Part shown: in pieces, positions 3,659 to 42,028 of the stretch | How the letters are laid out: the number at the start of each line of letters is the position of its first letter | Position numbering within the stretch: position 1 is the stretch's first letter | Origin: Fidelibacterota bacterium 408169 | Lineage (GTDB): Bacteria; Fidelibacterota; Marinisomatia; Marinisomatales; TCS55 | Length of the DNA stretch: 64,000 nucleotides | NCBI GenBank assembly: GCA_002256485.1 | Contig: NNSG01000010.1 | Location: 1 to 64,000, forward strand | Reading direction: 5' to 3' | Made by a program: the position numbers and the translations under genes | The notes under the pieces: model-generated | The model's database searches: none | Seen by the model: only the letters and a program-made list of their open reading frames with translations | Told to the model about the DNA's origin: nothing

Positions 3659-5380
3659 ATGAGCGGACATACTGAAACGCACCAAGAAGAGTCATTTTGG
3701 AGAAAATATATATTCTCCATTGATCATAAGATAATTGGATTACAATACGGATTGACAGCATTGGTATTTTTGTTTTTTGGATTTTGCTTAATGATGATGA
3801 TGAGATGGCAGTTGGCTTATCCTGAACAACCCATGCCATGGTTTGGATGGCTTTTTGGAGAAAGTGGAATTATGCTTCCTGAAATGTATAACTCATTAGG
3901 TGCAATGCATGGCACAATCATGATATTCTTAGGTGTTGTTCCTTTAGCTGTTGGTGCTTTCGGCAACTATTTTGTACCCCTTCAAATTGGCGCTCCGGAT
4001 ATGGCTTTCCCCAAATTGAATATGGCAAGTTATTGGTGTTATTTCGCAGGTGGCATTGTAATGATGGTAGGGTTTTTTGTGCCAGGTGGCGCAGCAAACT
4101 CAGGCTGGACATCTTATCCTCCATTAGCGGACATTGCAACAACAGGGCAAACAGTTTGGCTGTTTGGCATGGTTTTACTGATTACATCTTCTCTATTAGG
4201 TTCAATTAATACAATCACAACCATTATTCAACTTCGGGCAAAAGGCCTAACATGGATGAGATTGCCATTTTTTGTTTGGGCTCAGTTAGTAACTGGGTTT
4301 CTATTACTTTTAGCCTTTCCACCTTTAGAAGCTGCCGGCGTACTTCAACTAATGGATCGCCTTTTAGGTACAAGCTTTTTTCTACCATCGGGATTGGTAG
4401 TTTCAGGTGAAATATTAAATGTAAGTGGTGGAGGAAGTCCTTTATTATGGCAGCATATGTTTTGGTTTCTTGCTCACCCGGAAGTGTATGTTCTAATTCT
4501 GCCAGCGATGGGAATTGTTGCAGAAGTATTAGCGAATAATACACGAAAACCTCTATGGGGATATAAATCAATTGTTTATGCTTCTACCTTTTTAGGATTC
4601 ATGTCATTTATTGTGTGGGCACATCATATGTTTATGACAGGAATGGGCGCAACCATCAGTGCCTTCTTCCAGACAACAACTATGATTATATCCGTCCCTT
4701 CTGTCGTTATTTTAACCGCAATGTTTATTTCTCTTTGGGGTGCATCTATTAGATATAATTCCGCCATGCTTTTTGCATTGGGATTTCTCCCCATGTTTGG
4801 TATTGGTGGTCTTACAGGGCTACCCTTAGGGATTGCAGCATCTGATATTCATTTACATGATACATATTATGTTATAGGACACTTTCATTATGTAGTTGCT
4901 CCGGGAACAATATTTGCTCTATTTGCTGGTATTTATTATTGGTTTCCTAAAATGACGGGAAAAGTTCTGAATGAAACTTTAGGAAAAATTCACTTCTGGC
5001 TTTCAATGATATTTATTAATGGTATTTTTATGCCCATGTTTGTTCAGGGATTGGCTGGAATTTCTCGGAGATTATGGGACGGAGGGGCATCCTACGCACA
5101 TGCAACGGAAACCCTATGGTTGAATGAAGTTATGTCTGCATCAGCATGGTTACTTGGATTAGCTCAAATTCCGTTTATTTATAATTTAATTAAAAGTATG
5201 AAATCGGGAGAGAAAGCCGAAAGTAACCATTGGCAAGCTACTACGTTGGAATGGACAGATGCACCATCACCGCCCTTACCTCATAGAAACTTTGAAATTA
5301 TTCCTGAAGTCTATCGTGGACCCTATGAATATAGTGTTCCAAGTGCTGACAAAGATTTTACCCCACAATCAGAAGCGTAA
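3659..5380 (+). CDS. ctaD: Cytochrome c oxidase subunit I (first set)
   Basis: A 573-residue, 12-helix catalytic subunit of an A-family heme-copper oxidase. Heme a and a3-CuB ligands are all visible: AMHGTIM, AHPEVYVLIL (CuB His plus the Tyr cross-linked to it, and the D-channel Glu), WAHHMF, and LHDTYYVIGHFHYV. The D-channel entry Asp is present in GAPDMAFPKLN. The helix that normally carries the K-channel Lys reads MIISVPSVVILTAMF, with no Lys at the expected place. AAAGGA precedes the ATG. The gene opens the operon I-III-IV-small-CxxC-II, which ends at 7587. The soluble C-terminus (YRGPYEYSVPSADKDF) is also conserved in the second subunit I at 9933. Confidence 0.97.
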   Translation: MSGHTETHQEESFWRKYIFSIDHKIIGLQYGLTALVFLFFGFCLMMMMRWQLAYPEQPMPWFGWLFGESGIMLPEMYNSLGAMHGTIMIFLGVVPLAVGAFGNYFVPLQIGAPDMAFPKLNMASYWCYFAGGIVMMVGFFVPGGAANSGWTSYPPLADIATTGQTVWLFGMVLLITSSLLGSINTITTIIQLRAKGLTWMRLPFFVWAQLVTGFLLLLAFPPLEAAGVLQLMDRLLGTSFFLPSGLVVSGEILNVSGGGSPLLWQHMFWFLAHPEVYVLILPAMGIVAEVLANNTRKPLWGYKSIVYASTFLGFMSFIVWAHHMFMTGMGATISAFFQTTTMIISVPSVVILTAMFISLWGASIRYNSAMLFALGFLPMFGIGGLTGLPLGIAASDIHLHDTYYVIGHFHYVVAPGTIFALFAGIYYWFPKMTGKVLNETLGKIHFWLSMIFINGIFMPMFVQGLAGISRRLWDGGASYAHATETLWLNEVMSASAWLLGLAQIPFIYNLIKSMKSGEKAESNHWQATTLEWTDAPSPPLPHRNFEIIPEVYRGPYEYSVPSADKDFTPQSEA

Positions 5381-5392
5381 GAAAGGATTATT

Positions 5393-5989
5393 ATGGAAAT
5401 TCCATATAATGTAGAAGAGAGACAAGATACCGGTATGTTTAATGCCAAATTGGGTATTTGGCTTTTTTTAGCCTCAGAAGTCATGTTATTTGGAGGATTA
5501 TTCTCCGCATATGTTTTTTTGAGAATGGGAGATGTTACTGGAACATTTATTAGTGGATCCAGCGAATTAAACGTCCCTTTGGCTACATTGAATACACTTG
5601 TCTTAATTTCATCGAGTGTTACAATGATTATGTCATGGGTCTCACTTAAATTAGGTGAGCAGAAAAAATTTAAGCAGTATCTAGGTTCCACGCTATTTCT
5701 AGCGACTGTGTTTTTGGTCGTTAAATATTTTGAATATACTGCAAAGTTTCATCATGGTATTTTCCCTGATACATCAACATTTTTTGCAATTTATTTTACT
5801 ATGACAGGACTTCACATGATCCATATTATAGGGGGAATGGTTGTTATTTTCTATTTTTTGGTTCCCGGTTCTAGTATGATGAATACTGAGTCTGTACGAT
5901 TCACCAACAGAATTGAAATTGTTGGTCTGTATTGGCATTTTGTTGATTTAGTTTGGATTTTTCTTTTTCCAGTACTTTACTTACTATAG
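5393..5989 (+). CDS. ctaE: Cytochrome c oxidase subunit III (first set)
   Basis: 198 residues and about five transmembrane helices, the short prokaryotic form. Family motifs are LGIWLFLASEVMLFGGLF, with the conserved membrane Glu, and IEIVGLYWHFVDLVWIFLFPVLYL at the C-terminus. It lies 12 bases after subunit I with AAAGGA before the ATG. Subunit III stabilises the catalytic subunit and supports proton uptake into the D channel. Confidence 0.95.
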   Translation: MEIPYNVEERQDTGMFNAKLGIWLFLASEVMLFGGLFSAYVFLRMGDVTGTFISGSSELNVPLATLNTLVLISSSVTMIMSWVSLKLGEQKKFKQYLGSTLFLATVFLVVKYFEYTAKFHHGIFPDTSTFFAIYFTMTGLHMIHIIGGMVVIFYFLVPGSSMMNTESVRFTNRIEIVGLYWHFVDLVWIFLFPVLYLL

Positions 5990-5998
5990 GAGATAAAT

Positions 5999-6301
5999 AT
6001 GAGTGGGCATAGTGTAGAAGACATAAAAAAAAGTGTTAAAGTTTATATTGGTGTGTTTACAGCCTTGGCTGTATTAACAGTTGTTACTGTTGCCGCATCT
6101 TATCTTGATTTAAGTTTCGGAGAGTCCTTTTTCTTGGCATTAACAATTGCTTCGATAAAAGGAACGCTTGTTGCAGGATATTTCATGCATTTATTTACAG
6201 AAAGAACAGCGATCTTGGCGGTGTTAGGATTAACTTTCTTCTTTTTAATAACAATAATGTTTTTGCCCTATATGGCATTTACAGATCAGGCAGCGATTTA
6301 A
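5999..6301 (+). CDS. Cytochrome c oxidase subunit IV, prokaryotic type (first set)
   Basis: 100 residues with three hydrophobic segments. The pattern LTIASIKGTLVAGYFMHLF is typical of the prokaryotic COX4 family (Lys inside the membrane segment, then xYFMHL). GGAG precedes the ATG, which lies 9 bases after the subunit III stop. It is an accessory membrane subunit of the oxidase complex and is homologous to 12937-13215. Confidence 0.9.
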   Translation: MSGHSVEDIKKSVKVYIGVFTALAVLTVVTVAASYLDLSFGESFFLALTIASIKGTLVAGYFMHLFTERTAILAVLGLTFFFLITIMFLPYMAFTDQAAI

Positions 6302-6303
6302 AG

Positions 6304-6501
6304 ATGTTAAGTATAAAATCATTCCATATATTTTTTATAGTTATTTCCATCGTCGTCACATTAGGGTATGGGTTTTGGCAACTACAGAATCCATCTATCG
6401 ATACAAACTTTTCTACATTATTAGGAATAATGGGAATATTGATTGGCGCGGGGCTTGTTATCTATCTGCAAAAAGTAATTAAAAAATTCAAAACCATTTA
6501 A
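6304..6501 (+). CDS. Small two-helix membrane protein in oxidase operon, unknown
   Basis: 65 residues starting 2 bases after the subunit IV stop, so probably translationally coupled. There are two predicted transmembrane helices (about residues 7-26 and 38-57) and a Lys-rich cytoplasmic end. No Cys, His or Met cluster is present and I do not recognise a family. Its place between subunit IV and subunit II suggests an oxidase accessory or assembly role. No equivalent is seen in the second oxidase set. Confidence 0.65.
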   Translation: MLSIKSFHIFFIVISIVVTLGYGFWQLQNPSIDTNFSTLLGIMGILIGAGLVIYLQKVIKKFKTI

Positions 6502-6511
6502 CAGTTTAGAA

Positions 6512-6736
6512 ATGACTCGATTAATAATTATAACCGCCCTTTATATGATACCAAAAATTTCCTATGCCTGTGCAACCTGTTATGGCGCATCAGATGAACC
6601 AGCTACCATTGGCATGAATTGGGCGATTATAACATTATTAGGTGTCACTGGAACAATGCTTGGAAGTATTGTTGCTATTATGCTCCGATTGAAAAACAAA
6701 GCAAAGAAATTTAATATCCAAACAAAAGATATTTAG
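6512..6736 (+). CDS. Small CxxC membrane protein in oxidase operon, unknown (copy 1)
   Basis: 74 residues: a hydrophobic export or anchor segment (LIIITALYMIPKISYA), immediately followed by CATCYGASDEPA, then one transmembrane helix and a basic tail (LRLKNKAKKFN). The CxxC would lie at the outer membrane face. The second oxidase set has a protein of the same layout (NACSFCAGQDNK, 13241-13456), so the class travels with these oxidases. A copper-binding or thiol role in CuA or heme assembly is inference. The ribosome site of subunit II (AGGAGG) overlaps its stop codon. Confidence 0.75.
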   Translation: MTRLIIITALYMIPKISYACATCYGASDEPATIGMNWAIITLLGVTGTMLGSIVAIMLRLKNKAKKFNIQTKDI

Positions 6737-6747
6737 GAGGAAAACTT

Positions 6748-7587
6748 GTGTTAGATCTTTTAAGAAAATATGGATTGCCTTTAAATGCTTCTTCTCATGG
6801 CAGTGCTGTGGATGAAATCATGGTTTTATTTCACTGGCTGATGTTATTTCTTTTTATTGGGTGGGGGCTCTTTTTTATCTATACCTTGTTTCGGTTTAGA
6901 GCATCCAAAAATCCAAAAGCCGATTATACAGGTGTTAAAAGTCATTTCTCTTCCGGGTTGGAAGTGGCAGTAGCTGTAATTGAATTTGTAATTTTAATAG
7001 GATTTGCAATCCCAATTTGGGCAACCCGTGTCAATGATGTTCCCAATAGCGCAACAGGGGCAGAAGAGATTAGAGTGATAGCCCAGCAGTTTGCATGGAA
7101 TATTCATTATCCTGGGCCAGATGGAATTTATGGATCTCTAGATATTAATTTAGTCGATGAAGCAGATAATCCAATTGGATTGGACAGAACGGATCCAAAT
7201 GGTGTAGATGATTTTGTAATAATAAATCAACTTCATATACCCGTCAACAAACCTATTCGAATAGATCTTTCCTCTAAGGATGTGATTCACAGCTTTTTTC
7301 TTCCTGAATTTAGAGTAAAACAAGATGCAGTCCCGGGAATGAGTATTCCTTTATGGTTTGAAGCAACAATGACAACAGATGAATTTCTAAAAACCACAGT
7401 TGGCTCTGAACGTGAGGGAAAAGGATTTGAAATTGCATGTGCTCAATTATGTGGCTTGGGGCATTATAGGATGAAAGGTTATTTAACAGTTCATGATCAA
7501 GATAGCTATGACTCATGGCTTGTGGAACAGCAGGAAATTTTAAAAGAAGAAGGTGATGAAGATGATTGGGGGGATGATGGTTGGTAA
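6748..7587 (+). CDS. ctaC: Cytochrome c oxidase subunit II (first set)
   Basis: 279 residues starting at GTG with AGGAGG seven bases upstream. Two transmembrane helices (about 23-50 and 70-92) precede a cupredoxin domain. CuA ligands are complete: DVIHSFFLPEF (His) and CAQLCGLGHYRM (C-x3-C-x3-H-x2-M). Before the second ligand group there are extra loops (for example a stretch around PNGVDDF and TTVGSEREGKGFE) compared with the second subunit II. There is no fused cytochrome c domain. The C-terminus is acidic with Trp (GDEDDWGDDGW). It takes electrons from cytochrome c and passes them to subunit I. Unusually, the gene is last in its operon. Confidence 0.96.
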   Translation: MLDLLRKYGLPLNASSHGSAVDEIMVLFHWLMLFLFIGWGLFFIYTLFRFRASKNPKADYTGVKSHFSSGLEVAVAVIEFVILIGFAIPIWATRVNDVPNSATGAEEIRVIAQQFAWNIHYPGPDGIYGSLDINLVDEADNPIGLDRTDPNGVDDFVIINQLHIPVNKPIRIDLSSKDVIHSFFLPEFRVKQDAVPGMSIPLWFEATMTTDEFLKTTVGSEREGKGFEIACAQLCGLGHYRMKGYLTVHDQDSYDSWLVEQQEILKEEGDEDDWGDDGW

Positions 7588-9072: not shown

Positions 9073-9933
9073 ATGGTTAAAAATACAATGCAATTCTGGC
9101 TGAAAAGACTTAAGAAAAAAGCCCAGAAAATTACTTGGTCTGCTTGGGGTATCTGGTACATAGATCCACCTAAAGATGTATCATTGGATGGATATAGAAT
9201 CGATAATGTGATTCAGTATACAGATACTGTCATTACAATATATTTTAGTTTAGTTATCCTCACATTGATTTACTTCATTTTTAAGTATAGAGCAAGACCG
9301 GGGCATAAAGCAGTATATGATAAAGGGAATACAAAAAAACATGTTATGGCTACAATCGCCATGGGTTTGTTGGTATTCTTCTCAATTGATATTGTTATAG
9401 AATCCATGTCATTTAAAGATTTAAGAGAAGCTTTTTGGAATTTTCCAAAGGGAGAAAATGTAGTGAAAATTGAAGTAATGCCACAGCAATTTGCGTGGAA
9501 TTTTCGTTATGCCGGAGCAGATGGTATTTTTGCTACTGATGATGATGTTGTGCCTGCACAAAACCAAATGCATATTCCTGTGGATACACCTGTACTCATT
9601 CAAATTGCACCGTTTGATGTAATTCATTCATTTTTTATACCCAATTTTCGAGTTAAACAAGATGCCACACCTGGCATGATAAATGCCATGTGGTTTCAGG
9701 CAACTGAAACAGGAAATTTTGAAATTGCCTGTGCTGAACTTTGCGGTAACGGCCATTACAGAATGAAAGGTTATTTAACGGTAGAGAGCCAGGAAGCATA
9801 CGAACAATGGCTTTCAGACAATGCACCTCTGGAAGATGATGAAGATGATTGGGGCGACGATTGGGGTGATGAAGATGAAGATACTCAAGAAATCCCTGAA
9901 GACTGGGGTTGGACCTGGAAGGAGGTACAATAA
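9073..9933 (+). CDS. ctaC: Cytochrome c oxidase subunit II (second set)
   Basis: 286 residues. Two transmembrane helices lie at about 50-75 and 95-115. The CuA domain has DVIHSFFIPNF and CAELCGNGHYRM, complete as C-x3-C-x3-H-x2-M. The C-terminal tail is long and strongly acidic with repeated Trp (DEDDWGDDWGDEDEDTQE). The stop TAA shares one base with the ATG of subunit I (9933), showing translational coupling. It is homologous to 6748-7587 but lacks that copy's extra loops. No fused cytochrome c domain is present. Confidence 0.96.
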   Translation: MVKNTMQFWLKRLKKKAQKITWSAWGIWYIDPPKDVSLDGYRIDNVIQYTDTVITIYFSLVILTLIYFIFKYRARPGHKAVYDKGNTKKHVMATIAMGLLVFFSIDIVIESMSFKDLREAFWNFPKGENVVKIEVMPQQFAWNFRYAGADGIFATDDDVVPAQNQMHIPVDTPVLIQIAPFDVIHSFFIPNFRVKQDATPGMINAMWFQATETGNFEIACAELCGNGHYRMKGYLTVESQEAYEQWLSDNAPLEDDEDDWGDDWGDEDEDTQEIPEDWGWTWKEVQ

Positions 9934-11648
9934 TGTCTGAACATCATGAGCAATCATTTTGGGCACAGTATATTTTTTCACAAGATCATAAAACTATTGG
10001 AAAACAATTCTTATGGTTAGGATTATTTTTCTTATTGTTTGGCGGATTTCAAGCTTTGTTAATCCGTTGGCAATTGGCATATCCTGAACAACCGGTACCT
10101 TGGTGGCTGTTTGGAAAATTATTGTTTTCTGAAACTGCAGGAATTATTGATCCAGATAAATACAACGCGCTATTTACAATGCACGGAACAATAATGATTT
10201 TCTGGGCAATAACACCTTTGTTGATTGGTGCTTTCGGAAACTTTGTTATTCCATTACAAATTGGGGCACCGGATATGGCTTTCCCAAAATTGAATATGAT
10301 TTCATTTTGGACAATGTTTTTAGCGAGTATTGTTTTATTGGCTTCCTATTTACTTCCTGAAGGTACAGCGGCAGGTGGATGGACATCTTATCCTCCACTC
10401 AGTACACCGGTAGGCGGTATTGCCGGGGAGGGTCAAACGCTTTGGACCCTTGCGTTAACTTTAGCAGGTACATCTACTATGATGGGTGCAATTAATTACA
10501 TCATTACTGTAGTAAGAATGAGAGCACCTGGTATGACATATTTTAAAATGCCTTTAACAGTTTGGGGTTTATGGTTAACATCCATATTAAATGCCATTTT
10601 TGTACCTGTAATAGCTGCTGGATTAATTCTTTTGCTTCTAGATAGAACTATAGGAACTCAATTTTTTGTTGCAGGTGGTTTGGCAACTGTTGAAGGAGGA
10701 GATCCATTACTTTATCAACATGTTTTTTGGATTTTTGGACATCCTGAAGTGTATATCTTAATACTTCCGGCATGGGGTATAGTATCTGATTTGCTTTCTG
10801 TGTTTTCCCGTAAACCTGCATTCGGAGCAAAAGTAACTGCTATTTGTATGAGTACGATTGTTGTGTTGAGTTCAATTGTGTGGGGGCATCATATGTATAC
10901 AACCGGTATGAGTCCTCTACTAGGAAAATCATTTATGTTCCTTACACTGCTTATCAGTATTCCATCAGCCATATTCTTCTTAAACTGGTTAGGGACAATG
11001 TGGCGAGGCAATCTCCATTTTGATCCACCAATGCTGTTTGCGATGGCAGTATTATGGGTTTTTGGATTAGGAGGTTTAACGGGCCTTTATAATGCTACAA
11101 TTACAGCGGATATTTATCTTCATGATACAATGTTTGTTGTTGGACATTTTCATTACACGATGGCAGCCTCAGTTTTGTTTGGTGGATTAGCAGCTATTTA
11201 TTTTTGGTTTCCGAAAATGTTCGGGAAAAAAATGAACCCACTCCTCGGGAAAATTCATTTCTGGGCATCGTTTATTCCCTTGAATTATGTGTTTTTTAAC
11301 ATGATGGTTCTGGGATATGCAGGACACCATAGACGTATTTACAATCCAAGTGAATATGAATTTTTAAAGCCGATTATTGGATTAAATGAATCTATTACGC
11401 TATTTGCAATTATTCTTGGTGTTGCACAATTTGTATTCCTTTTCAACTTTATCTATTCAATGGTTAAAGGAGAAAAGGCTGAAGCAAATCCATGGAATGC
11501 TACTACGTTGGAATGGACGTTGGAAGGCCCTATTCCTCATGGCAATTTTGCAACAACACCTACGGTATATAATGGTCCTCATGAATATAGTAATCCGGCA
11601 GTAAAAGACAGGGATTGGATTGCTCAATCCGAGCCAATGCCTACTTAA
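9933..11648 (+). CDS. ctaD: Cytochrome c oxidase subunit I (second set)
   Basis: 571 residues from the ATG at 9933, chosen because AAGGAGG lies seven bases upstream and the product then begins MSEHHEQSFWAQYIF, parallel to the first copy. Ligand motifs are complete: TMHGTIM, FGHPEVYILILP, WGHHMYTTGM and LHDTMFVVGHFHYT. The D-channel Asp (GAPDMAFPKLN) and Glu (HPEVY) are present. The K-channel helix reads LLISIPSAIFFLNWL, with Phe where related oxidases carry Lys (IPSAVK). It is the catalytic O2-reducing subunit of a second oxidase parallel to the 3659 copy. Confidence 0.97.
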   Translation: MSEHHEQSFWAQYIFSQDHKTIGKQFLWLGLFFLLFGGFQALLIRWQLAYPEQPVPWWLFGKLLFSETAGIIDPDKYNALFTMHGTIMIFWAITPLLIGAFGNFVIPLQIGAPDMAFPKLNMISFWTMFLASIVLLASYLLPEGTAAGGWTSYPPLSTPVGGIAGEGQTLWTLALTLAGTSTMMGAINYIITVVRMRAPGMTYFKMPLTVWGLWLTSILNAIFVPVIAAGLILLLLDRTIGTQFFVAGGLATVEGGDPLLYQHVFWIFGHPEVYILILPAWGIVSDLLSVFSRKPAFGAKVTAICMSTIVVLSSIVWGHHMYTTGMSPLLGKSFMFLTLLISIPSAIFFLNWLGTMWRGNLHFDPPMLFAMAVLWVFGLGGLTGLYNATITADIYLHDTMFVVGHFHYTMAASVLFGGLAAIYFWFPKMFGKKMNPLLGKIHFWASFIPLNYVFFNMMVLGYAGHHRRIYNPSEYEFLKPIIGLNESITLFAIILGVAQFVFLFNFIYSMVKGEKAEANPWNATTLEWTLEGPIPHGNFATTPTVYNGPHEYSNPAVKDRDWIAQSEPMPT

Positions 11649-11683
11649 TCAATTTTCAGGATTAAAACTAACAGATAAGTTAA

Positions 11684-12265
11684 ATGAGCACTCAAGTAAT
11701 ACAACCAAAAGTTAAAACGGATGAATTTACATCTGTACTCGGTATGCTGGTTGTATTGGGCTCAATCACAATGCTCTTTGTAGCATTATTTGTCAGTTAT
11801 TCCATTTTACGTATACAATTTGGAATGTGGAGTAAACCCGGAACTGGATCGCTTCCATTCACTTTAGGAATTATCAATACTGTCATTCTATTAGGTAGTA
11901 GTTGGTCATTCTATACAGGACAAAAATATGCAAAATTTGGAAACAATAATCAGACAAAACTGTGGTTATGGATAACATTTTTTCTGGGGATATTGTTTTT
12001 AGCAGGACAATTAAATCTCTGGAGAATATTAATGGACACTGGGATGACAGCTCATTCATCAATTGTCGGTTCAGTTTTCTATATGTTAACCGGTATGCAT
12101 GGCGTCCATATTGTGGCTGCAATTGCTGCATTAGGTTGGGCAATTTTAAAGTCAACTAAAATACCCGAATCCGTAGATGTGCGACCAATTAAACTTGTTG
12201 GGCTATTATGGCATTTTCTGGATTTTCTATGGATATGTCTATTCATTTCAATTTTTATTATTTGA
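11684..12265 (+). CDS. Cytochrome c oxidase subunit III-like protein A (second set)
   Basis: 193 residues and about five helices. The C-terminal signature IKLVGLLWHFLDFLWICLFISIFI and the central YMLTGMHGVHIVAA are those of the subunit III family. The conserved membrane Glu of helix 2 (SEVMLF in the first set) is missing here (LGSITMLFV). It is followed directly by a second subunit III-like gene. The pair may form a split or heterodimeric subunit III. Confidence 0.9.
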   Translation: MSTQVIQPKVKTDEFTSVLGMLVVLGSITMLFVALFVSYSILRIQFGMWSKPGTGSLPFTLGIINTVILLGSSWSFYTGQKYAKFGNNNQTKLWLWITFFLGILFLAGQLNLWRILMDTGMTAHSSIVGSVFYMLTGMHGVHIVAAIAALGWAILKSTKIPESVDVRPIKLVGLLWHFLDFLWICLFISIFII

Positions 12266-12292
12266 GAATACAATCAAGAAGGAAACAAGCAT

Positions 12293-12925
12293 ATGAGTGA
12301 AGCATTAGCAATTAAAGATCCGTTTGGAAAAGCTACTACTGGTAAACTCGGAATGTGGCTATTCATTATAATGGATGGATTATCATTTGGTGGTTTACTG
12401 ATTGGCGGAGCTGCATTAAGAGCGGCTGCACCATCGTGGCCTAATCCAGGGGAATTATTAAATATTCCTCTAACAGGATTTAATACTTTTTTACTTATTT
12501 GTACAAGTTTTACAATGGTAATGGCTCTGAATTCTTTGGAAAAAGGAAGTCAGTCAGGTCTTAAAAAATACCTTGCATTAACTATGGCCGGAGGAATTTT
12601 ATTCTTAGGAATCCAAGTTTATGAATATTCTCATTTTATTTTGGGAAGCCCTGAATTAACTCATAACTTGGCAGCAGCCGGTTTTGCAGAAGCCACAAAT
12701 TTTTTACCGAGTACAGGTATTTACGCAGCTGTATTTTATGCTACAACATGTTTCCATGGTTTGCATGTTCTTTCCGGAGTGATTTATATAGGTTGTATTC
12801 TTTATGCCTCAAATCAGGGAAGGTATTCTGCTGATGATACAGATCATATAGAAATCCTGGGATTGTTTTGGCATTTTGTTGATTTAATCTGGATATTTGT
12901 TTTTACAGTTATATACTTGATTTAG
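12293..12925 (+). CDS. Cytochrome c oxidase subunit III-like protein B (second set)
   Basis: 210 residues and five to six helices. Family motifs are KLGMWLFIIMDGLSFGGLL (Asp where Glu is usual), ATTCFHGLHVLSGV and IEILGLFWHFVDLIWIFVFTVIYL. AAGGA precedes the ATG. It lies 27 bases downstream of the first subunit III-like gene in the same operon. The C-terminal half is closer to canonical subunit III than that of its neighbour. Confidence 0.92.
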   Translation: MSEALAIKDPFGKATTGKLGMWLFIIMDGLSFGGLLIGGAALRAAAPSWPNPGELLNIPLTGFNTFLLICTSFTMVMALNSLEKGSQSGLKKYLALTMAGGILFLGIQVYEYSHFILGSPELTHNLAAAGFAEATNFLPSTGIYAAVFYATTCFHGLHVLSGVIYIGCILYASNQGRYSADDTDHIEILGLFWHFVDLIWIFVFTVIYLI

Positions 12926-16997: not shown

Positions 16998-19900
16998 TTA
17001 TAATTCTTTTACATACTCGGAAATTGATTCATCTTCATTAAAACCAAATCGATGAATAAATTCGGTCTCCATTAATCCAACCGTTAGGTAAGTCACACCG
17101 GATTTTTTTACTCGATGTATCATTTCGTTCATTAACAAATCTCCCAAACCGCTTTTTGCAAATTTTTTATGAATTGCAATCTTTTCAAGATGCGCTGTAT
17201 CTTCATCTATTATTTTCCAAAATACACCACCAACCTGTGCTTTATTTGCTGAAAATACTATCAAAAAATCATGATCTTCACCAAATTGAGCTGATAAATC
17301 ATAAGAGAGGAGTAGGTCGTAAAAATTAGCAATCTCCTTTGGCTTAAAAGGTGGCCTTATTGTAAAAATTCTGCCATCATCATTTTTTACATTGATTGCT
17401 AAATCTAACTTTTTTTGTCCGGTGGCTCTCGTGATCAATTCAGCATAATCTGTTGAATCCACATGCTCATAAATTAATCGGGTGAGGAAATAGACATCTT
17501 TTTCTGAACAATTTGGTTCTTTTACCAATGCATGAATATTCATATCTAATTCAGAAGATTCAATCTCGTGATGATGCAGTTGTGAAGAAAGTTCAAATAA
17601 TCTCTGTGCTACAAACGATTTATGGTCTGCAAAACACGTAAGTAAAAAGTATCTGAGTCGAACTTCAGGATGGGAAACATAAATGGTATTCAGTCTATAG
17701 TCATTATACATCTCTTGCAGGATATTACATTGAGATTCGATTGCGGCTTCAGGATTCAAATCCATCCACCTTTGAAATCGAAGTGCAGCGAAAATAACAG
17801 ATTTTGGAATATAACCGTACGCTTCTACTTCAGAAATGTATTCATTTACTTGTGCTTGATTTAATCCATGAATATTTATAGATCCAACTTCATTCGCTAT
17901 TTGATTTAAAATCACTAATCCCTTTTCTTTTCCCACAGCCTGCATAATACATGTAAATAAAATGTCCCAATTGAGCACATGATTTAATCCCCTAAATCTT
18001 TTTTCAGTGTCAATGATTAATTTGCTATATAGTATTGTAATAAAATCCAAATAGGACTTAAAGGGCTCTTGATAAAAAGAGTGAATAATACGAACATTCG
18101 TAACATAATCAAATTCAGATACAACTACATTTTTAATTGATGGTTCAATCAAAGTATATTTAAAATTTGTCATTGCCCAATGGTCGATATATCCTTGTAA
18201 ACCACTCCATCCAAAATGCAGCCAATGCATATCCCAACGGTCACGGAGTTTTGGATTGTTCAATTCCTTTTCATGATGACGTAAATAAGCTTCAACATTC
18301 GCTTTCGTATCGTATTCAGAAATAATAATTCCTGAATTTGGAAAAGAACAGAGATATTCATTCGTAACCTTCATTGACATTAACCCGGTGCTTTTTACAA
18401 TTTGCCAATCACTGATATTTTCTATATCAATTTTTGAGGATTCTGGAAAATGATTTAAAATAAAATTATATGAATTACCATCCTTAAGTGTTGTAAGTAT
18501 TCGATAATGTTGGATCGGTATATTGGTGATCATTGGAGTAATCCAGATCCCTTTTTTAGGTATATTTTCTAAATTGGGTAGTTTATATCCTGTGATGAGA
18601 AATATAGCTTCTTTGACAATGGGATGAGATTGGAATATTTTCAATAAAAAATCTTTTTCCTCATTTGGAATAACCTTATCAAACTCAAGTATATCGGACC
18701 AGGAATATTCAATACCTGTTTCAGGATCAACACTTTGGATATCTACTTCCCCGATCATTTCCTTAAAATGTTTTATTAATGTTGTTATAGAATTGGCAGC
18801 TGTTTGCCCTAATGCATCGACCGATGAAAGTAATTTCCAGCAGGTAAGTTCATGTCTAATATGTTTGTATTGCACAGGATGAATATGGGCTAATTTTAAT
18901 AATTGACTTATGAGCATCCGAATATATGCATGCTCCGAACTCGATAAATCTTCTTGGGTTCTATGAGAGATTAATTCTTTAATTAGTTCATTTACATGTT
19001 TTACATCCAATTGGGTTATGTCAAAATTGAATGAGCGTAGTTTTTTCTCCTTTTGATGTCGTTTGAAAAGGTTTTTTAATTGAGAAATAAATTGGTCTTT
19101 ATATAAATGTGGGATTAAAGTATTGAAAATCAATCTGCTGAATTTCAATTTTGAATCTTCCAACATACTTTTAAGAACTTGAATACCTAATTTTTTCAAT
19201 TCGATGTCTTTTTGAGCAAAAACATGATTAAAATAATTCAAACCATTCTTCTGATTTTGAATAAGTAGCATCGTACCCATATGGATATCTTCTATTTTAA
19301 CTGATTCATTAATATCAGTTTGGATCACTTGGGATTGTAATGGTTGAGAAGATTTACGTAATAGTAATTGCACATCACTTGAATTTTTATATGGAAATAA
19401 TCTAAATAAGACATTTCCAAAAAAGATTGAAAGGTCGTTGTTACCCAACCATAAAACAGGATCCATTAAAATTTTTCCGAGATCTATTTTATTTGAGTTT
19501 ATTTGATATTCAAATTCTCCCAATACTAATGTTTCATTTTGCCATTGACATTTGCATTTAAGTCCGAGTGTATCATTCTTCAAATAGCGACCATTCCAGG
19601 AAATATTTTGTGAAACAATATTCATTGTTTTCAACAACCAGTTTGGAAAAGAAACCACTTTTCCTTTGTATTCAATATTCGTTTGGTTTGGTGCATACAT
19701 AGGCTCAATTATATCAGCCCAATTCTTCAAAATATTCTTACGCTTGAAAGTCCCTTTTTGAGTGAGTTCATCTTTATCAGAGCTGAAATCCCTTGGAATG
19801 ACACCAAAATTAACGATACGTTCAAATGGAGAAAGAAAACCATTTACTGATTGAATCAATGCACTAATGATTGACCTAATTATGGCTGGTTCTCTTGATG

Positions 19901-21533
19901 GAACATGCTTATTCAAATACTCTTCATCGGGATATATTAAAACTGTATTGAAATTCATTTGATCACCAACGAGAAAGGCTGATTTTATAGCATCGAATTC
20001 TGATAACATATTCTCAATCTTCTGTGGTGTTAGAGTTTGTCCCGCTGCATTTTTATATATTTCTTTCTTTCTGTCTTTTATAAAGTAATGACCGTCTTTT
20101 TCCATAAAAATATCCCCGGTATGAAACCATCCGTCAACTGTGCTGGAAATAAGAGGATCACTATAATAATATGAAGATAAATATGGGCCCTTTAATAATA
20201 ATTCACCATCTTCAGAAATTCGTAAATCTATTCCCGGAAGTCTCTGACCTACAGAATCAACAGTATATTTATTTGGGTAAGTCATGGTAATCCCACCCGT
20301 TGCTTCCGTCATTCCGTACCCGCTTAATAATTGTACATCATTATTTTGAAAGAACTGGAAAATATCAGGGTCCAGGTATCCGGCTGCAGATAGCCCCCAT
20401 TTTAAATTTCCGCCTGTAACTTTATTAATCGCTTTGCGCACAATCCGATTTTCATCTAAATGATCCCCAGCTAAAGATTGAATTGCATCATACAACTGTG
20501 TCCAGCGTTTGGGCACACTTATGAAAATGGATGGTTTAATTTTTATAAAGTTTTTTCTTAGAGCATCAAAAGATGAATTTTCCGCGAATGTATAGGAAGC
20601 TCCCCAAAAAATACTGCCTTGCAATTCAAGAAATCGTCCAAATGTGTGATAGAGAGGAAGATAGGATAAAAAAGTATCCTGTGGTCCCAACTTAGTTAGT
20701 GCCAGGGCACGAGCGAACCTCTTTGTAATCATATTATTTTGAGTGAATGTAATACCTTTTGGCTCTCCGGTCGTTCCGGAAGTATACATTATTGTTGCGA
20801 TATCTTCCATGTTAGCGCGTCCAATGCGTTTTAAAACATCTAAAGGATTAGATTTTTTGCCGTTTTCTATAAAAGAATGCCAATCTTTTTCATTTAAATT
20901 GACAATAGTTATCTTGTTGTGATTGTAAATAAGTACATCTTTTAATTCAGCATGGAGTTCTTCGTCGATAAACAAGTGTGTTATACCACTGTGTTTTATA
21001 ATATAATCGATATCTTTTTTATTCGCATTAGCCGGAATGGGAATAATGGGAAAATGAAAAGATAAACAGGTTAAATCTATAATGGCACCACGTAGGCAGT
21101 TTGGAGTAAGAATTCCAATACGCATATTTTCTTGGTGTGGTTTTTCAAATTGAATCAAAGCTCCAGCTGTTTTTGTCAATTCTTCCCAGATTTCTTCATA
21201 GGTATGATTAACAACTTCACCACTTTGAATTTCATGAAATAGGACTTTGTGTTTGTATCTATTTGAACGGTTATAAAATAGATGCCCAAATGAGTATTTA
21301 GATTTAACAATCAGTTTGATTAATAATTCTAACCAATCGTCAACAAGATTATTTTTAAATATGATGGAATTAACATTTGGGAGATGACCAAGATTTAGAA
21401 ATGTATGAATCGTTTTACGTTCAGTTTTTTCTTTAAGAAGTTGCCGTGCAATCAAAAATAATTTATCAACATCAATAACATTCTTTTCTGCTTCAATTAT
21501 TAGATTTTGGATAGCTTGTCTACTCAAATCCAT
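16998..21533 (-). CDS. Giant acyl-CoA synthetase-like / unknown / GNAT fusion protein
   Basis: 1511 residues. Residues about 75-620 form an AMP-binding (ANL) enzyme: TIMYTSGTTGEPKG (phosphate loop), GYGMTEATGGI, DGWFHTGD and KDRKKEIYKNAAGQTLTP, as in long-chain acyl-CoA synthetases. Residues about 640-1380 match no family I recognise. Part is helical and repeat-like (about 790-930), followed by a mixed region with DMHWLHFGWSGLQGYIDHW. Residues about 1395-1511 form a GNAT acetyltransferase (LEKIAIHKKFAKSGLGDLLMNE, then FIHRFGF). No signal peptide, membrane helix or carrier-protein site (DSL/DSI) is seen. I infer acyl activation coupled to acyl transfer, substrate unknown. It is transcribed alone, divergently from the HD-GYP gene. 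Confidence 0.85.
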   Translation of the reverse strand: MDLSRQAIQNLIIEAEKNVIDVDKLFLIARQLLKEKTERKTIHTFLNLGHLPNVNSIIFKNNLVDDWLELLIKLIVKSKYSFGHLFYNRSNRYKHKVLFHEIQSGEVVNHTYEEIWEELTKTAGALIQFEKPHQENMRIGILTPNCLRGAIIDLTCLSFHFPIIPIPANANKKDIDYIIKHSGITHLFIDEELHAELKDVLIYNHNKITIVNLNEKDWHSFIENGKKSNPLDVLKRIGRANMEDIATIMYTSGTTGEPKGITFTQNNMITKRFARALALTKLGPQDTFLSYLPLYHTFGRFLELQGSIFWGASYTFAENSSFDALRKNFIKIKPSIFISVPKRWTQLYDAIQSLAGDHLDENRIVRKAINKVTGGNLKWGLSAAGYLDPDIFQFFQNNDVQLLSGYGMTEATGGITMTYPNKYTVDSVGQRLPGIDLRISEDGELLLKGPYLSSYYYSDPLISSTVDGWFHTGDIFMEKDGHYFIKDRKKEIYKNAAGQTLTPQKIENMLSEFDAIKSAFLVGDQMNFNTVLIYPDEEYLNKHVPSREPAIIRSIISALIQSVNGFLSPFERIVNFGVIPRDFSSDKDELTQKGTFKRKNILKNWADIIEPMYAPNQTNIEYKGKVVSFPNWLLKTMNIVSQNISWNGRYLKNDTLGLKCKCQWQNETLVLGEFEYQINSNKIDLGKILMDPVLWLGNNDLSIFFGNVLFRLFPYKNSSDVQLLLRKSSQPLQSQVIQTDINESVKIEDIHMGTMLLIQNQKNGLNYFNHVFAQKDIELKKLGIQVLKSMLEDSKLKFSRLIFNTLIPHLYKDQFISQLKNLFKRHQKEKKLRSFNFDITQLDVKHVNELIKELISHRTQEDLSSSEHAYIRMLISQLLKLAHIHPVQYKHIRHELTCWKLLSSVDALGQTAANSITTLIKHFKEMIGEVDIQSVDPETGIEYSWSDILEFDKVIPNEEKDFLLKIFQSHPIVKEAIFLITGYKLPNLENIPKKGIWITPMITNIPIQHYRILTTLKDGNSYNFILNHFPESSKIDIENISDWQIVKSTGLMSMKVTNEYLCSFPNSGIIISEYDTKANVEAYLRHHEKELNNPKLRDRWDMHWLHFGWSGLQGYIDHWAMTNFKYTLIEPSIKNVVVSEFDYVTNVRIIHSFYQEPFKSYLDFITILYSKLIIDTEKRFRGLNHVLNWDILFTCIMQAVGKEKGLVILNQIANEVGSINIHGLNQAQVNEYISEVEAYGYIPKSVIFAALRFQRWMDLNPEAAIESQCNILQEMYNDYRLNTIYVSHPEVRLRYFLLTCFADHKSFVAQRLFELSSQLHHHEIESSELDMNIHALVKEPNCSEKDVYFLTRLIYEHVDSTDYAELITRATGQKKLDLAINVKNDDGRIFTIRPPFKPKEIANFYDLLLSYDLSAQFGEDHDFLIVFSANKAQVGGVFWKIIDEDTAHLEKIAIHKKFAKSGLGDLLMNEMIHRVKKSGVTYLTVGLMETEFIHRFGFNEDESISEYVKEL

Positions 21534-33434: not shown

Positions 33435-34169
33435 CTAATCAAACATTCTCAACAATTTATCTGGCATGATCCTTAATAGTGGGATCATCATTTTCATCTG
33501 CCAGGGAAAAACAAATGTTTTCTTACCCCTGTCAATAGCATTTACTATTTTTTCTACAGCCGTTTCAACGGGCAGTAAAAATGGCATCTTTTTTATTTCT
33601 GCTGTCATTGCAGTTTCAATAAACCCCGGGCAGATGGTTGTTACTTGAATATTATATTTGGAGAGTGTCAATCTCCAACTGTCTGCCATAAGCCTAATGT
33701 TTATCTTTGCTCCTGCATAACCTCCATGGTATGGTGCCCGTATAAATGATGCAACTGAACTGATATTTACCAAAATACCATTTTGTTGTTCTTTCATAGT
33801 GGGGATAAATGGAATGAGTGTATTCGTTACTCCTAATACATTTGTTTCTATAATATTATTGATAGCTGTTGAATCACCGCTCATCAGGTCATCATGACCG
33901 CCGATCCCTGCATTAGCTATAACCATATCAATTCCATCTGTTTTACTCATGAATTCATCAGCAGCATTTTTTGCAGTTAAACGGTCCTTTGCATCCACTT
34001 GATATACATATGCATTTCCCCCCAATTCTCTGCATTTATCTGCAACTGTGTTCAATTTTTCTTTTCTCCGTGCAGCGAGACCAATGATTGCTCCTCTTTT
34101 CGAATATATGTAAGCTAAATGTTCGCCGATACCGCTGCTGGCTCCGGAAATAAAAATGCGTTTACTCAT
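33435..34169 (-). CDS. Short-chain dehydrogenase/reductase
   Basis: 244 residues. It is a Rossmann fold with GASSGIGEHLA (nucleotide loop), IANAGIGG and NISSVASFIRAPYHGGYAGAK, the catalytic Ser-Tyr-x3-Lys. A basic stretch after beta-2 (AARRKEK) suggests NADP(H). It is the last gene of the minus-strand amino-sugar operon, two bases after the DUF5009 gene, and converges with the acyl-CoA synthetase. The substrate is not evident; a role in sugar metabolism is only suggested by context. Confidence 0.9.
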   Translation of the reverse strand: MSKRIFISGASSGIGEHLAYIYSKRGAIIGLAARRKEKLNTVADKCRELGGNAYVYQVDAKDRLTAKNAADEFMSKTDGIDMVIANAGIGGHDDLMSGDSTAINNIIETNVLGVTNTLIPFIPTMKEQQNGILVNISSVASFIRAPYHGGYAGAKINIRLMADSWRLTLSKYNIQVTTICPGFIETAMTAEIKKMPFLLPVETAVEKIVNAIDRGKKTFVFPWQMKMMIPLLRIMPDKLLRMFD

Positions 34170-34171
34170 GA

Positions 34172-35287
34172 TTAGATTTTAATAAATATTTTTTGTCTGT
34201 ACAGCCACAATAAAATTACCCACCACACAAACACATGGGTCAATGCAAAAAGTAAAGATCCGTTTATGTCCCCAGCGAAGGGTTGAAAAATTGTTTTGTA
34301 TAAATATGAATATCCTGAAACTGTTTCACCATTGAGTAAAAATTTCACTTTCAAAATTGTTTTGGTCCACAGTCCTGAACCAACGAAAATAAAGAGTGAA
34401 TTCGTCCCGTAAATGATAAATGGATGAAACACGGATTTAAATCCTTTTATATCGATCAACCAAATCAATATTGCCAGAATCACGGTTGCTATTCCGGCAG
34501 TATATAACACGTAAGAACTTGTCCAAAGCTGTTTGTTTATGGGCATGAATATCGACCAGAGAAGACCCAGAATAATTTGAATAGCTCCAGCTATAAACAT
34601 TTTTTTCAAGTTGTCCTTCTGGTTCACATCGGAAGTTTGAATCATTACTCCAACCATATATCCCAACAAAACAGTAATGACTGACGGAATGGTACTTAAT
34701 AGTCCTTCGGGATCAAACGCAATTCCTGTTCCTCTCCATAAATGGTTAGCACCAAGAATAACCATGTCAATTTTCCTGATTAGATTTGTTTCCAGCCCAT
34801 ATGGATCTGTTCCGCCAAAACCCCATAATAGCAACCAATAGGCAATGAGAGTAAGGGAAATTAATTTCCAGAGATTTGTAAACGAAAATCGAATAACGAG
34901 TAATGCGCCTATGCCGTAAGCAAGTCCGATTCTCTGAAGTACACCCATAATACGAAAATTTTCCCAATTCCAATCTTGGCGAATAAACGGAAATGCATTT
35001 AATAATAATCCGAAAACAAAAATGGTCATTGTTCTCCAAATAATTTTAGAATACACTTCATGGCTTGGTTTAAAATCAAATTTAGCGAATGAAAATCTCA
35101 TGGCGACACCCACAATAAATAAAAAGAATGGGAACACCAAATCAGTGGGTGTACATCCATGCCATTTCGCGTGCCGGAGCGGAGCATAGACATGTGACCA
35201 AGTACCGGGGTTATTGACTAAAATCATTAGAGCAATGGTCATTCCTCGAAATACATCTAAAGAATAATATCTTTGGGTTGTATTCAT
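34172..35287 (-). CDS. nagX: NagX-like DUF5009 membrane protein (HGSNAT-related)
   Basis: 371 residues, ten to eleven helices. The family signature YYSLDVFRGMTIALMILVNNPGTWSHVY and HAKWHGCTPTDLVFPFFLFIVGVAMRFS is unmistakable. The family includes bacterial NagX, linked to GlcNAc and chitin use, and the transmembrane acetyltransferase HGSNAT. It overlaps the symporter gene by four bases (ATGA). A role in uptake or acetyl transfer of amino sugars fits the kinase, deaminase and GH84 genes of this locus. Confidence 0.88.
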   Translation of the reverse strand: MNTTQRYYSLDVFRGMTIALMILVNNPGTWSHVYAPLRHAKWHGCTPTDLVFPFFLFIVGVAMRFSFAKFDFKPSHEVYSKIIWRTMTIFVFGLLLNAFPFIRQDWNWENFRIMGVLQRIGLAYGIGALLVIRFSFTNLWKLISLTLIAYWLLLWGFGGTDPYGLETNLIRKIDMVILGANHLWRGTGIAFDPEGLLSTIPSVITVLLGYMVGVMIQTSDVNQKDNLKKMFIAGAIQIILGLLWSIFMPINKQLWTSSYVLYTAGIATVILAILIWLIDIKGFKSVFHPFIIYGTNSLFIFVGSGLWTKTILKVKFLLNGETVSGYSYLYKTIFQPFAGDINGSLLFALTHVFVWWVILLWLYRQKIFIKI

Positions 35288-37107
35288 GAATCCAGCTTGG
35301 AGATCAAATTATTCCAAATCCACCAGAATCCAATTCCGGATAATGTAAACAGAAGTAGAGCATATCCATTATTGCCGAATAGCCAATTCCCGATAGCAAA
35401 ATTTAAACCATAGATCATTGCAATTCCAGCTATCCAATTAAAGAAGAATCCTTTCGTGACGGGTTGGAGTGTTGTATGTTTTGCAAACGAACCCCAGAGT
35501 CCGCCAGGTTGAACTCGCTGATAAAATCTACTTAGGGTAGATGCAGGTTCGGGTTTCGTTAAAAATGTAACAATGACCCAAACAAAGACAGAGGCAGGGA
35601 CGATAATCATTAGTTTATGGTGGACTTGAATTGGAATGCCAAATAAAATAGGTGTTCTGTCGAAAAGTGCATAGGGCAAACCACTGGCAATCGTCTGATT
35701 CCAAGCAATCATTTCTAAAATAACGGTTATAATCAGTGACGTAAGTAATGCAGATATCTCAGTCCAGGCATTGATGCGCCACCAGAACCAGCGGAGAATT
35801 AACACAGCACCGATTCCGGCACCCATGGCATAAATGAATTCCCAAGCTTTGCTTATACTCTGCATATTAATGGCAACAAACGCAGCGCACACCATAAGAA
35901 AAACTGTAATGATTCTACTTACTAACACATAATGATGTTGATCTGCTTCTCGTTTGATAAATCGTTTATAGACGTCGTTTAACATATAGGAAGCGCCCCA
36001 ATTCAAATGAGTATCAATGGTAGACATAAATGCTGCAAGAAATGAAACCACTAGTAATCCTTTAAATCCAGGTCCCAGAAATTTGTTCATTAGAAGGGGA
36101 TAACCAGCTTTTGATCCCAATTCTGCATGGGATTCTGGAATGATAGGGAATACAATAATAGAGACTAATGCAACGGCGATCCATGGCCATACGCGTAAGG
36201 CGTAATGTGCTAAATTGAACCAAAGTGTTGCAGCTAAAGCGTGTTTTTCATTTTTGGCAGATGACATCCGCTGAATGATATAACCTCCGCCATCCGTTCC
36301 GTGATGAGACCACCACATGAGGGTAAGAAAGATCAAAAATTTTGAGAAAGGAGATTCCCAAAATGTGGATGTGGTAACCCCAGCGTCGGGGATCGGCGGA
36401 ATAAATTTGAGTGTAGTATCATGAACTACTCCCGAATCGGTCAGGTGCAAATTTGATATTTTATCCAGAAGCAAATCCATCCCCCCAACAGCATTAACCG
36501 CAATAATCGCCAGGATAATTGAGCCCGCCATTGCGATGAAAAACTGAACCAAATCTGTCACAACCACTCCCCAAAATCCCGATAAAAGGGCATAAAGCAA
36601 TGCAATTGTTACGCAAATCCACACGGCAGTCCAGCGGTCAATATTGAGCATAACCGCAGCCACCGAAGCCATGGCATTGATGACCCAACCCATGACGATA
36701 AAATTATACAAAATTGCGAAATAACCCGCTTTAAAGGCTCTCAATACCGCTGCGGGTCTTCCACTATAACGAATTTCTAATAATTCATTGTCCGTAATGA
36801 TTTCAGCTCGTCGCCAAAGCCTTGAAAATAGCAATGCACCCAACAGCCCGGATAGCAGCAGATTCCACCAGAACCAGTTTTGCCAGATTCCAGGTCCGCG
36901 AACAAATTCTGTAATCGCCAACGGCGTATCGGCGGCAAACGTTGTGGCCACCATGGATGTGCCTACAATCCACCAGGGAAGAGTACGGCCGGAAAGAAAA
37001 TATTCCTCGGTGCTTTGACCCGCACGCTTGGAGAAATAGATTCCAACTCCAAGGGAAAATAAAATATAAGAAATAATAATAATCCAATCGAATGTTGACA
37101 GAGCCAT
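35284..37107 (-). CDS. Sodium:solute symporter (SSS family)
   Basis: 607 residues and about 14 helices. The N-terminus reads FDWIIIISYILFSLGVGIYFSKRAGQSTEEYFLSGR (SSS start), then MVATTFAADTPLAITEFV and the central region around LLSGFWGVVVTDLVQFFIAM. These match Na+/sugar-type symporters commonly found beside GlcNAc genes in FCB bacteria. The start is one base after the SpoIID-like stop. It is the likely uptake system for the sugar handled by this operon. Confidence 0.92.
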   Translation of the reverse strand: MALSTFDWIIIISYILFSLGVGIYFSKRAGQSTEEYFLSGRTLPWWIVGTSMVATTFAADTPLAITEFVRGPGIWQNWFWWNLLLSGLLGALLFSRLWRRAEIITDNELLEIRYSGRPAAVLRAFKAGYFAILYNFIVMGWVINAMASVAAVMLNIDRWTAVWICVTIALLYALLSGFWGVVVTDLVQFFIAMAGSIILAIIAVNAVGGMDLLLDKISNLHLTDSGVVHDTTLKFIPPIPDAGVTTSTFWESPFSKFLIFLTLMWWSHHGTDGGGYIIQRMSSAKNEKHALAATLWFNLAHYALRVWPWIAVALVSIIVFPIIPESHAELGSKAGYPLLMNKFLGPGFKGLLVVSFLAAFMSTIDTHLNWGASYMLNDVYKRFIKREADQHHYVLVSRIITVFLMVCAAFVAINMQSISKAWEFIYAMGAGIGAVLILRWFWWRINAWTEISALLTSLIITVILEMIAWNQTIASGLPYALFDRTPILFGIPIQVHHKLMIIVPASVFVWVIVTFLTKPEPASTLSRFYQRVQPGGLWGSFAKHTTLQPVTKGFFFNWIAGIAMIYGLNFAIGNWLFGNNGYALLLFTLSGIGFWWIWNNLISKLDS

Positions 37108-37108
37108 A

Positions 37109-38362
37109 TTAATATAGCCTTTTCAATTCTGTGTCTATGAAATAGTGAGTTAGAATTTCGTTTGTTGAGTAGTTATTTAACGCCATACCGAGAGCACCTA
37201 TTTGGCAAAGCCCAACACCATGCCCCCAACCGGCGCCAAAGAGTTTTATATGTTTTTCATCCATGTTTATAATAAAAGCAGAACTATACAAAAATGATGG
37301 ATGGAGCATCTTACGAATGTCGTATTCATTATTAATTCGGAGTGTTTTCGGTATTCCTTCATTGGTATCATAGTCTAAATATAAGTGATTTATTCTTCCT
37401 GATTTACCACGATTTAATACATCAATTTTGGTAATGTGAGAAACATGCTCGTTTATTTTTTCAGAGAAAAATTTACAAAACTCATTTTGTGTAAAGTTAA
37501 GAAGCCATCGAAAATAATGTCCTTCCTTATCCACATTTCCGAGATATTTATGAAGTTCGTCTTCAGGTGCATAGTTTTGTCCGCAAAATACCTTAGGATA
37601 GTAAGTGAACCAATTATCCCAATCTGTTTCAACATTATCATTTGGCCCATCATATACACTGGATAAATAAGGAGTAGGCGGCATATCCCAAACATTTTCA
37701 GCACTTTCTGAAATTCCACCGCAGGATTTTGAATAACGTGCATCGCAAATTTGGTTATCATATGTAAGAACAATCCCTTTTGTATCTTTGGACGCTTTTC
37801 GTGATGAATCTGTTATTTGGTCTAATCCTTGATAACGCTGACAGCAATCATCATTGCAAGCATCAAGATTTAAGTCCGAATGTTTTTTTTCTGCAGCAGC
37901 CAAAATCCATGAACGAGCCGTTATCGTTTGTGATTCCAATAGGGCAGATGGGCAGGTACTACTCATTTCTGAAACAGCGACACATGCAATATATTGCTCC
38001 AAAGGGACACAATTAGTTAGGAGTAAATATTCGTCTTTAATGGAAATATCCACATTCCCCAATAATGTTACATCAATAGTTTTTTCCCAATGAAATTCAC
38101 GTCCGGCAGGGACACCATGAATTGTGATACCGTAATTATCATCCTCAATAATTTTTGTTATTAACATTTCACCGTTATCAACAGAAACATTGAGTATTTC
38201 AGGCGTTTTGCTTGATGGATTTAGTCGGTCAAAAGTTTCTATCTCAAACAGTGATGGATCTGAAAATGAAATAGTTACTTCTTTACGTTTATCTATAGGG
38301 AGAATAATACCAATTCGTAAAATGGGTTCAGATTGTGGGAATTTGTTTTGCATTATATTCAT
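37109..38362 (-). CDS. SpoIID/LytB-domain protein (amidase-enhancer-like), apparently not exported
   Basis: 417 residues from the ATG at 38362, one base after the kinase stop; a longer frame to 38392 would overlap the kinase. The SpoIID core is clear: VPLEQYIACVAVSEMSSTCP with the catalytic-type Glu, ARSWILAAAEKKH, NDDCCQRYQGLDQI, CDARYSKSCGGISESAENVW and GAGWGHGVGLCQIGALGMA. SpoIID proteins cleave peptidoglycan glycan strands lacking stem peptides; others activate amidases. The product begins MNIMQNKFPQSEPILRIGI, with no signal peptide or lipobox, so it should stay in the cytoplasm. That location and its place among sugar-metabolism genes are odd for the family. Confidence 0.87.
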   Translation of the reverse strand: MNIMQNKFPQSEPILRIGIILPIDKRKEVTISFSDPSLFEIETFDRLNPSSKTPEILNVSVDNGEMLITKIIEDDNYGITIHGVPAGREFHWEKTIDVTLLGNVDISIKDEYLLLTNCVPLEQYIACVAVSEMSSTCPSALLESQTITARSWILAAAEKKHSDLNLDACNDDCCQRYQGLDQITDSSRKASKDTKGIVLTYDNQICDARYSKSCGGISESAENVWDMPPTPYLSSVYDGPNDNVETDWDNWFTYYPKVFCGQNYAPEDELHKYLGNVDKEGHYFRWLLNFTQNEFCKFFSEKINEHVSHITKIDVLNRGKSGRINHLYLDYDTNEGIPKTLRINNEYDIRKMLHPSFLYSSAFIINMDEKHIKLFGAGWGHGVGLCQIGALGMALNNYSTNEILTHYFIDTELKRLY

Positions 38363-38363
38363 T

Positions 38364-41059: not shown

Positions 41060-41147
41060 AATATATGGGTTTGAAAAGTATAAATGTTTATTTTGATTGC
41101 TGAAACTAACGCAAATTAAACTATAGTTCAGGCAACTTTTTTATATT
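41060..41147. promoter_or_regulatory. Divergent intergenic region between the two amino-sugar operons
   Basis: 88 AT-rich bases separate the start of the minus-strand operon (41059) from the plus-strand esterase (41148). Both promoters must be here or overlap the ends. I see no clear palindrome or reliable -10/-35 pair. Confidence 0.4.
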
Positions 41148-41963: not shown

Positions 41964-42028
41964 TTTAGACCTTTTTTAATAATTTTATAAGAAATATTGA
42001 ATTATTATTAGATTTCATACTTCAAAAT

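Follow-up and report, generated by a model that had tools for sequence, protein, structure and literature searches.

The window, by which we mean the whole stretch of 64,000 nucleotides analysed from Fidelibacterota bacterium 408169, carries on its minus strand an open reading frame of 1511 codons (21533..16998) that joins an AMP-forming ANL module to a GNAT domain, and we refer to the gene and its relatives as ANL-GNAT. A preliminary description of this DNA had placed the frame correctly at 16998-21533 and given its length, though not its strand, and had named an ANL ligase at one end and a GNAT at the other, both of which are confirmed by Pfam. The protein has no transmembrane-like segment and is predicted to be soluble, and the gene shows uniform GC and GC3 over its length. 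The features are:

16998..21533, minus strand: whole ANL-GNAT gene, 1511 aa (ATG at 21533, stop codon 16998-17000)
21270..21533, minus strand: residues 1-88, N-terminal extension with a W/L pattern conserved in relatives
19692..21269, minus strand: residues 89-614, AMP-forming ANL adenylation module (AMP-binding and AMP-binding_C_3), long-chain acyl-CoA-synthetase-like
19299..19691, minus strand: residues 615-745, small beta domain without a family match (AlphaFold2 model, Pfam)
18759..19298, minus strand: residues 746-925, helical solenoid with weak ARM/HEAT-like profile matches (AlphaFold2 model, profile search)
17904..18758, minus strand: residues 926-1210, kinase-fold (APH/Bud32-like) domain without a conserved catalytic or DFG Asp
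17379..17903, minus strand: residues 1211-1385, alpha-helical region leading as a linker into the GNAT, the most conserved part of the middle (FAxLRxxRWxxLNPxA)
17001..17378, minus strand: residues 1386-1511, GNAT acyltransferase domain (Pfam, alignment, Foldseek)

Other parts of the window, as read from sequence, contain two separate gene sets for cytochrome c oxidase subunits (3659-7587 and 9073-12925), each near an Rrf2-like regulator; a 976-aa protein that combines a GH3 glycosidase with a beta-lactamase/esterase-like domain (42029-44959); and a 774-aa protein that combines glucosamine-6-phosphate deaminase with an LmbE-like deacetylase (45834-48158) and lies in an amino-sugar cluster at about 33435-49468.

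A search with the middle region as query found the gene in 36 of 61 near relatives and in 87 of 245 genomes of the phylum, nearly always with a frame of about 1490-1630 aa. Full-length relatives, the search for which the preliminary description had proposed, are present in at least four phyla (Neomarinimicrobiota, Calditrichota, Myxococcota and Acidobacteriota), where the single frame usually measures about 1500-1660 aa. The hosts named by contig search are Candidatus Neomarinimicrobiota/Marinimicrobia, Calditrichota, Anaeromyxobacter and other Myxococcales, and MAGs of Deltaproteobacteria and Acidobacteria; Anaeromyxobacter has cultured members. Four further phylum searches, in which most frames are about 1540-1660 aa, found the gene in 22 of 40 Calditrichota genomes, in 25 of 195 genomes from the phylum of an Anaeromyxobacter MAG, in 22 of 247 from that of an Acidobacteria MAG (a divergent clade included) and in 4 of 284 from that of one deltaproteobacterial MAG. 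The divergent acidobacterial clade (L203-L214) keeps the full domain order, matches the A2 profile with E-values of 1e-16 to 1e-53, and has DRIKDIYKN in its ANL in place of DRKKEIYKN. In a FastTree tree, a fast method that leaves some long branches, the sequences cluster largely by phylum, and inheritance therefore looks mainly vertical. A tblastn search against plasmids matched ANL domains alone.

This distribution bears on the possibility that the frame is an artefact in which two or more genes were fused through an error of sequencing or assembly; the preliminary description had named a sequencing error that fused two genes as a ground for rejecting the protein. Such errors, or splits, are indeed met with, as in one genome (G014:C18:27624-29946) where the gene is divided within its middle into two frames of 529 and 1015 aa, through a sequencing error or a real split. 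However, a single frame with the same domain order is found in well over a hundred genomes of several phyla, some of them single-contig genomes from Myxococcota and Acidobacteriota, and almost all carriers among the near relatives and the phylum genomes have one open frame. Because relatives across phyla nearly always have one frame, we consider a fusion artefact to be already refuted and its probability negligible.

The N-terminal module belongs to the ANL superfamily by its AMP-binding fold and by the presence of P-loop, A5 and A8 motifs. Pfam places AMP-binding at residues 89-457 (5e-52) and AMP-binding_C_3 at 497-614 (7e-12), and the motifs TSGTTGxPKG, GYGMTE and DRKKEIYKN are conserved; the P-loop Lys259, Glu410 of GMTE and the A8 Arg488 are invariant in 68 of 68 sequences. 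Its nearest relatives are long-chain acyl-CoA synthetases and the adenylation domains of carboxylic acid reductases, which have the same P-loop, A5 and A8 motifs; ANL-GNAT differs from them in an altered A10 and in its fusion to about 900 more residues, and the protein falls far below every NCBIfam equivalog cut-off. In an ungapped comparison with an acyl-CoA synthetase encoded in the same window, the A10 region reads ELTPTMKVRRK in the synthetase and ELTQKGTFKRK in ANL-GNAT, with Thr at the position of the canonical Lys. Across relatives this position is Thr/Ser, and the region ELTxKGTFKRK has an invariant Lys two residues before it. Adenylation by the module is consequently likely but not certain from these motifs. 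Unlike NRPS and other carrier-protein-dependent ligases, the window protein has no PP-binding match in Pfam, nor do the C-terminal parts of its relatives, in agreement with the earlier reading that a carrier-protein domain is absent.

The middle had been described as impossible to place. That stands with respect to families, in that residues 615-1385 have no convincing Pfam, NCBIfam or PADLOC match (the PADLOC search found no defence family), and a sequence-profile search against the PDB gave at best weak ARM/HEAT and GNAT matches. The fold, by contrast, can be assigned from structure prediction, as a solenoid followed by a catalytically degenerate kinase fold; of the profile and structure searches suggested earlier, it was AlphaFold2 and Foldseek that gave a recognisable result. 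An AlphaFold2 model of residues 600-1511, built with 39 relatives, reached a pLDDT of 86.8 and a pTM of 0.79, and a model of residues 925-1390 of a relative (L076), built with 47 sequences, reached 89.5 and 0.86. Against the PDB, the first model returned VPS34 and other PI3K/PIKK structures at the head of its matches (E 6e-6; TM at or below about 0.3). The second returned 436 matches at E<=0.001; those listed all have the kinase fold and are led by corramycin phosphotransferase, PRPK/Bud32 (the best TM, TMt 0.56), PsiK, JAK2 and FGFR2.

The fold of residues about 926-1210 is thus shared with Bud32/PRPK and APH-type kinases. Unlike the active members of those families, ANL-GNAT has no conserved HRD or DFG Asp and no conserved beta-3 Lys across 68 aligned sequences, the divergent Acidobacteriota clade included, although a kinase-type catalytic-loop Asn is kept in 49 of the 68; these positions were assigned from predicted strand order, not by coordinate superposition. 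Kinase activity is not expected, and because a kinase fold occurs here without the conserved catalytic or DFG Asp, the predicted domain is most simply read as a pseudokinase. In the class III PI3-kinase VPS34, as in ANL-GNAT, a helical domain precedes the kinase fold; given the low TM, the lack of a sequence relation and the missing catalytic residues of ANL-GNAT, the arrangement is probably only parallel.

At the C terminus, Pfam recognises a GNAT at residues 1394-1501 (4e-7), which has an R/QxxGxS/G-like CoA loop and a C-terminal GGLVKxL. Residue 1450, at the place expected of a general base, is acidic in all of 68 sequences (E in 47, D in 21). The nearest solved relatives are GCN5 by profile (4e-9) and ArgA by Foldseek (TMt 0.59, rmsd 1.9 A). 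The substrate of such a GNAT might just as well be a small molecule.

The genes beside ANL-GNAT differ among lineages. In the order to which the window belongs, the gene stands alone, with a GAF-HD-GYP gene upstream and a DUF420/SCO/ctaB/ctaA block downstream on the other strand. These HD-GYP and cytochrome-oxidase-assembly flanks lie on opposite strands and are probably uninformative; a functional link to the cytochrome-oxidase-assembly genes was considered and rejected, because they are convergent and conserved only within that order. Neither there nor in Calditrichota loci does citrate synthase adjoin the gene. Elsewhere it does recur as a conserved neighbour, of the kind that the preliminary description had proposed to look for, and adjoins the ANL-GNAT gene in four clades. 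In Neomarinimicrobiota (f30/f31), citrate synthase is convergent at about 0.1-0.8 kb, with glutamate dehydrogenase on the other side. In Acidobacteriota it is convergent at 6 and 90 bp (L239 and L238), the best NCBIfam models differing between the two synthases. In Myxococcota (L250, L252, L254) it is immediately upstream on the same strand, and aconitase lies further upstream in L252 (NCBIfam-confirmed) and L254 (identified from its sequence), so that some loci have the order aconitase, citrate synthase, ANL-GNAT gene, homocitrate synthase. Citrate synthase is just downstream on the same strand in a deltaproteobacterial MAG (L151), and in another phylum (L266) the order is citrate synthase, ANL-GNAT gene, homocitrate synthase on one strand.

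In almost every Myxococcota locus the next gene on the strand of ANL-GNAT encodes homocitrate synthase (TIGR02146 above cut-off), and it overlaps ANL-GNAT by 4 bp in L250, L252 and L254, by gene calls that in these GC-rich loci are heuristic, with approximate starts. For the gene 3′ of ANL-GNAT in Anaeromyxobacter, an assignment as homocitrate synthase is preferred over Re-citrate synthase, because the cut-off is passed and a Si-citrate synthase is also present in Anaeromyxobacter genomes. In the f30 Neomarinimicrobiota loci (L058:14839-16653:- and similar) a conserved 605-aa gene without a Pfam match and a protein of about 830 aa with a PPDK_N domain both constantly accompany glutamate dehydrogenase beside the ANL-GNAT gene.

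Almost every one of 22 genomes checked has just one copy of citrate synthase, and by a crude binomial estimate its adjacency in 4 of 7 clades would therefore arise by chance with a probability of about 4e-12. The arrangements of Neomarinimicrobiota and Acidobacteriota are both convergent and could share ancestry, and we therefore count at least three distinct arrangements. Such recurrent adjacency suggests an enzyme of control or acylation at the entry to the TCA cycle.

There are other ways to read the same neighbours and domains. One is that ANL-GNAT is a small-molecule N-acyltransferase, in which the ANL module makes an acyl-CoA and an ArgA-like GNAT N-acylates an amino acid such as glutamate or 2-aminoadipate, for biosynthesis or for protection, in the vicinity of 2-oxoglutarate, glutamate and lysine metabolism. 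An ArgA structure with acetyl-CoA and glutamate is the best structural match of the GNAT, and the neighbours homocitrate synthase in Myxococcota and glutamate dehydrogenase in Neomarinimicrobiota f30 would fit. However, likeness to ArgA at this level is generic for GNATs, GCN5 is the better match by sequence, no homocitrate synthase passes the cut-off in the genome from which the window comes, and a core of 770 residues with a solenoid and pseudokinase is hard to explain in an enzyme for small molecules; we regard this reading as unlikely. Still less probable, in our estimate, is a role in building lipids, in which a long-chain acyl-CoA synthetase would supply a GNAT that makes an N-acyl lipid. 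The relatives of the ANL module among long-chain acyl-CoA synthetases and carboxylic acid reductases point that way, whereas no lipid, envelope or ACP gene recurs beside the ANL-GNAT gene in the loci examined, the protein shows no transmembrane-like segment, and the kinase-fold scaffold would have no obvious role. From the preliminary description of a single-chain system that passes an activated acid to an amine or protein, possibly a new modification or lipid-building enzyme, the activation and transfer domains that bracket a carrier-less middle are retained, as is the possibility of such single-chain transfer, and the lipid-building alternative finds no support in gene context.

The closest parallel in architecture is with the type I KATs (Pat/YfiQ/PatZ), which also have a C-terminal GNAT and a large N-terminal module of the acyl-CoA-synthetase type and are tied to acetyl-CoA metabolism (PMC6456759, PMC8556138). 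Their synthetase domain is NDP-forming, inactive and senses acetyl-CoA (PMC8556138), whereas that of ANL-GNAT is an AMP-forming ANL with most motifs intact, followed by the added solenoid and kinase-fold core. Pfam finds AMP-binding (ANL) and no NDP-forming domain in the protein, which is therefore not a type I KAT. The parallel nonetheless raises the possibility that the ANL module has ceased to be an enzyme and would act, by analogy, as a sensor of acyl-CoA, ATP/AMP or an acid that gates the GNAT. The replacement of the canonical A10 Lys by Thr/Ser is consistent with this, as is the precedent of inactive acyl-CoA synthetase domains that serve as acetyl-CoA sensors in known bacterial KATs (PMC8556138). 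Against it, the other core ANL motifs have hardly an exception despite a large divergence, as would seldom be seen in a dead domain, and two residues from the canonical A10 position there is an invariant Lys; a purely sensory ANL module therefore seems to us improbable.

We tentatively propose that ANL-GNAT is a large soluble multidomain acyltransferase that acts at, or controls, the acetyl-CoA/citrate node, a reading that we hold to be quite possible, if short of probable. The GNAT would take an acyl group, acetyl or longer, from CoA and place it on an amine, for which a lysine in a client protein is the most likely candidate. The ANL module would use ATP to activate a carboxylic acid, either to provide the donor acyl-CoA or to sense the state of acid, ATP or CoA, and the solenoid and pseudokinase would form a scaffold that links the two ends and binds a client or effector. 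The neighbouring genes in other phyla make the entry of acetyl-CoA into the TCA cycle the most likely client process, through citrate synthase and, in the case of Myxococcota, through aconitase and homocitrate synthase as well. What the data show directly is the gene with its conservation, domain order, conserved motifs, predicted folds and neighbours; from these we infer the activities of the ANL and GNAT domains, a protein as acceptor, and control of citrate synthase or its pathway. A narrower version, in which the ANL module activates an acid, the solenoid and pseudokinase recognise the client, and citrate synthase or related acetyl-CoA-condensing enzymes are acylated so as to set TCA entry, is possible but rather doubtful. 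Sirtuin deacylases would reverse lysine acylation, and they occur in 20 of 22 genomes as against 10 of 14 control genomes; sirtuins are common, and their presence is little proof of lysine acylation by ANL-GNAT.

None of the five described types of bacterial KAT has this architecture (PMC8556138, PMC6456759), and a literature search returned no paper on the architecture. The individual domains are known; the literature searched contained neither their combination, nor the core of about 770 residues, for which Pfam has no model, nor the linkage to citrate synthase. The family is widespread and conserved, yet its annotation goes no further than a generic AMP-binding or GNAT protein. If ANL-GNAT does control the citrate synthase node, it would tie acyl activation to TCA entry in a way not seen before, in major uncultured lineages of sea and soil.
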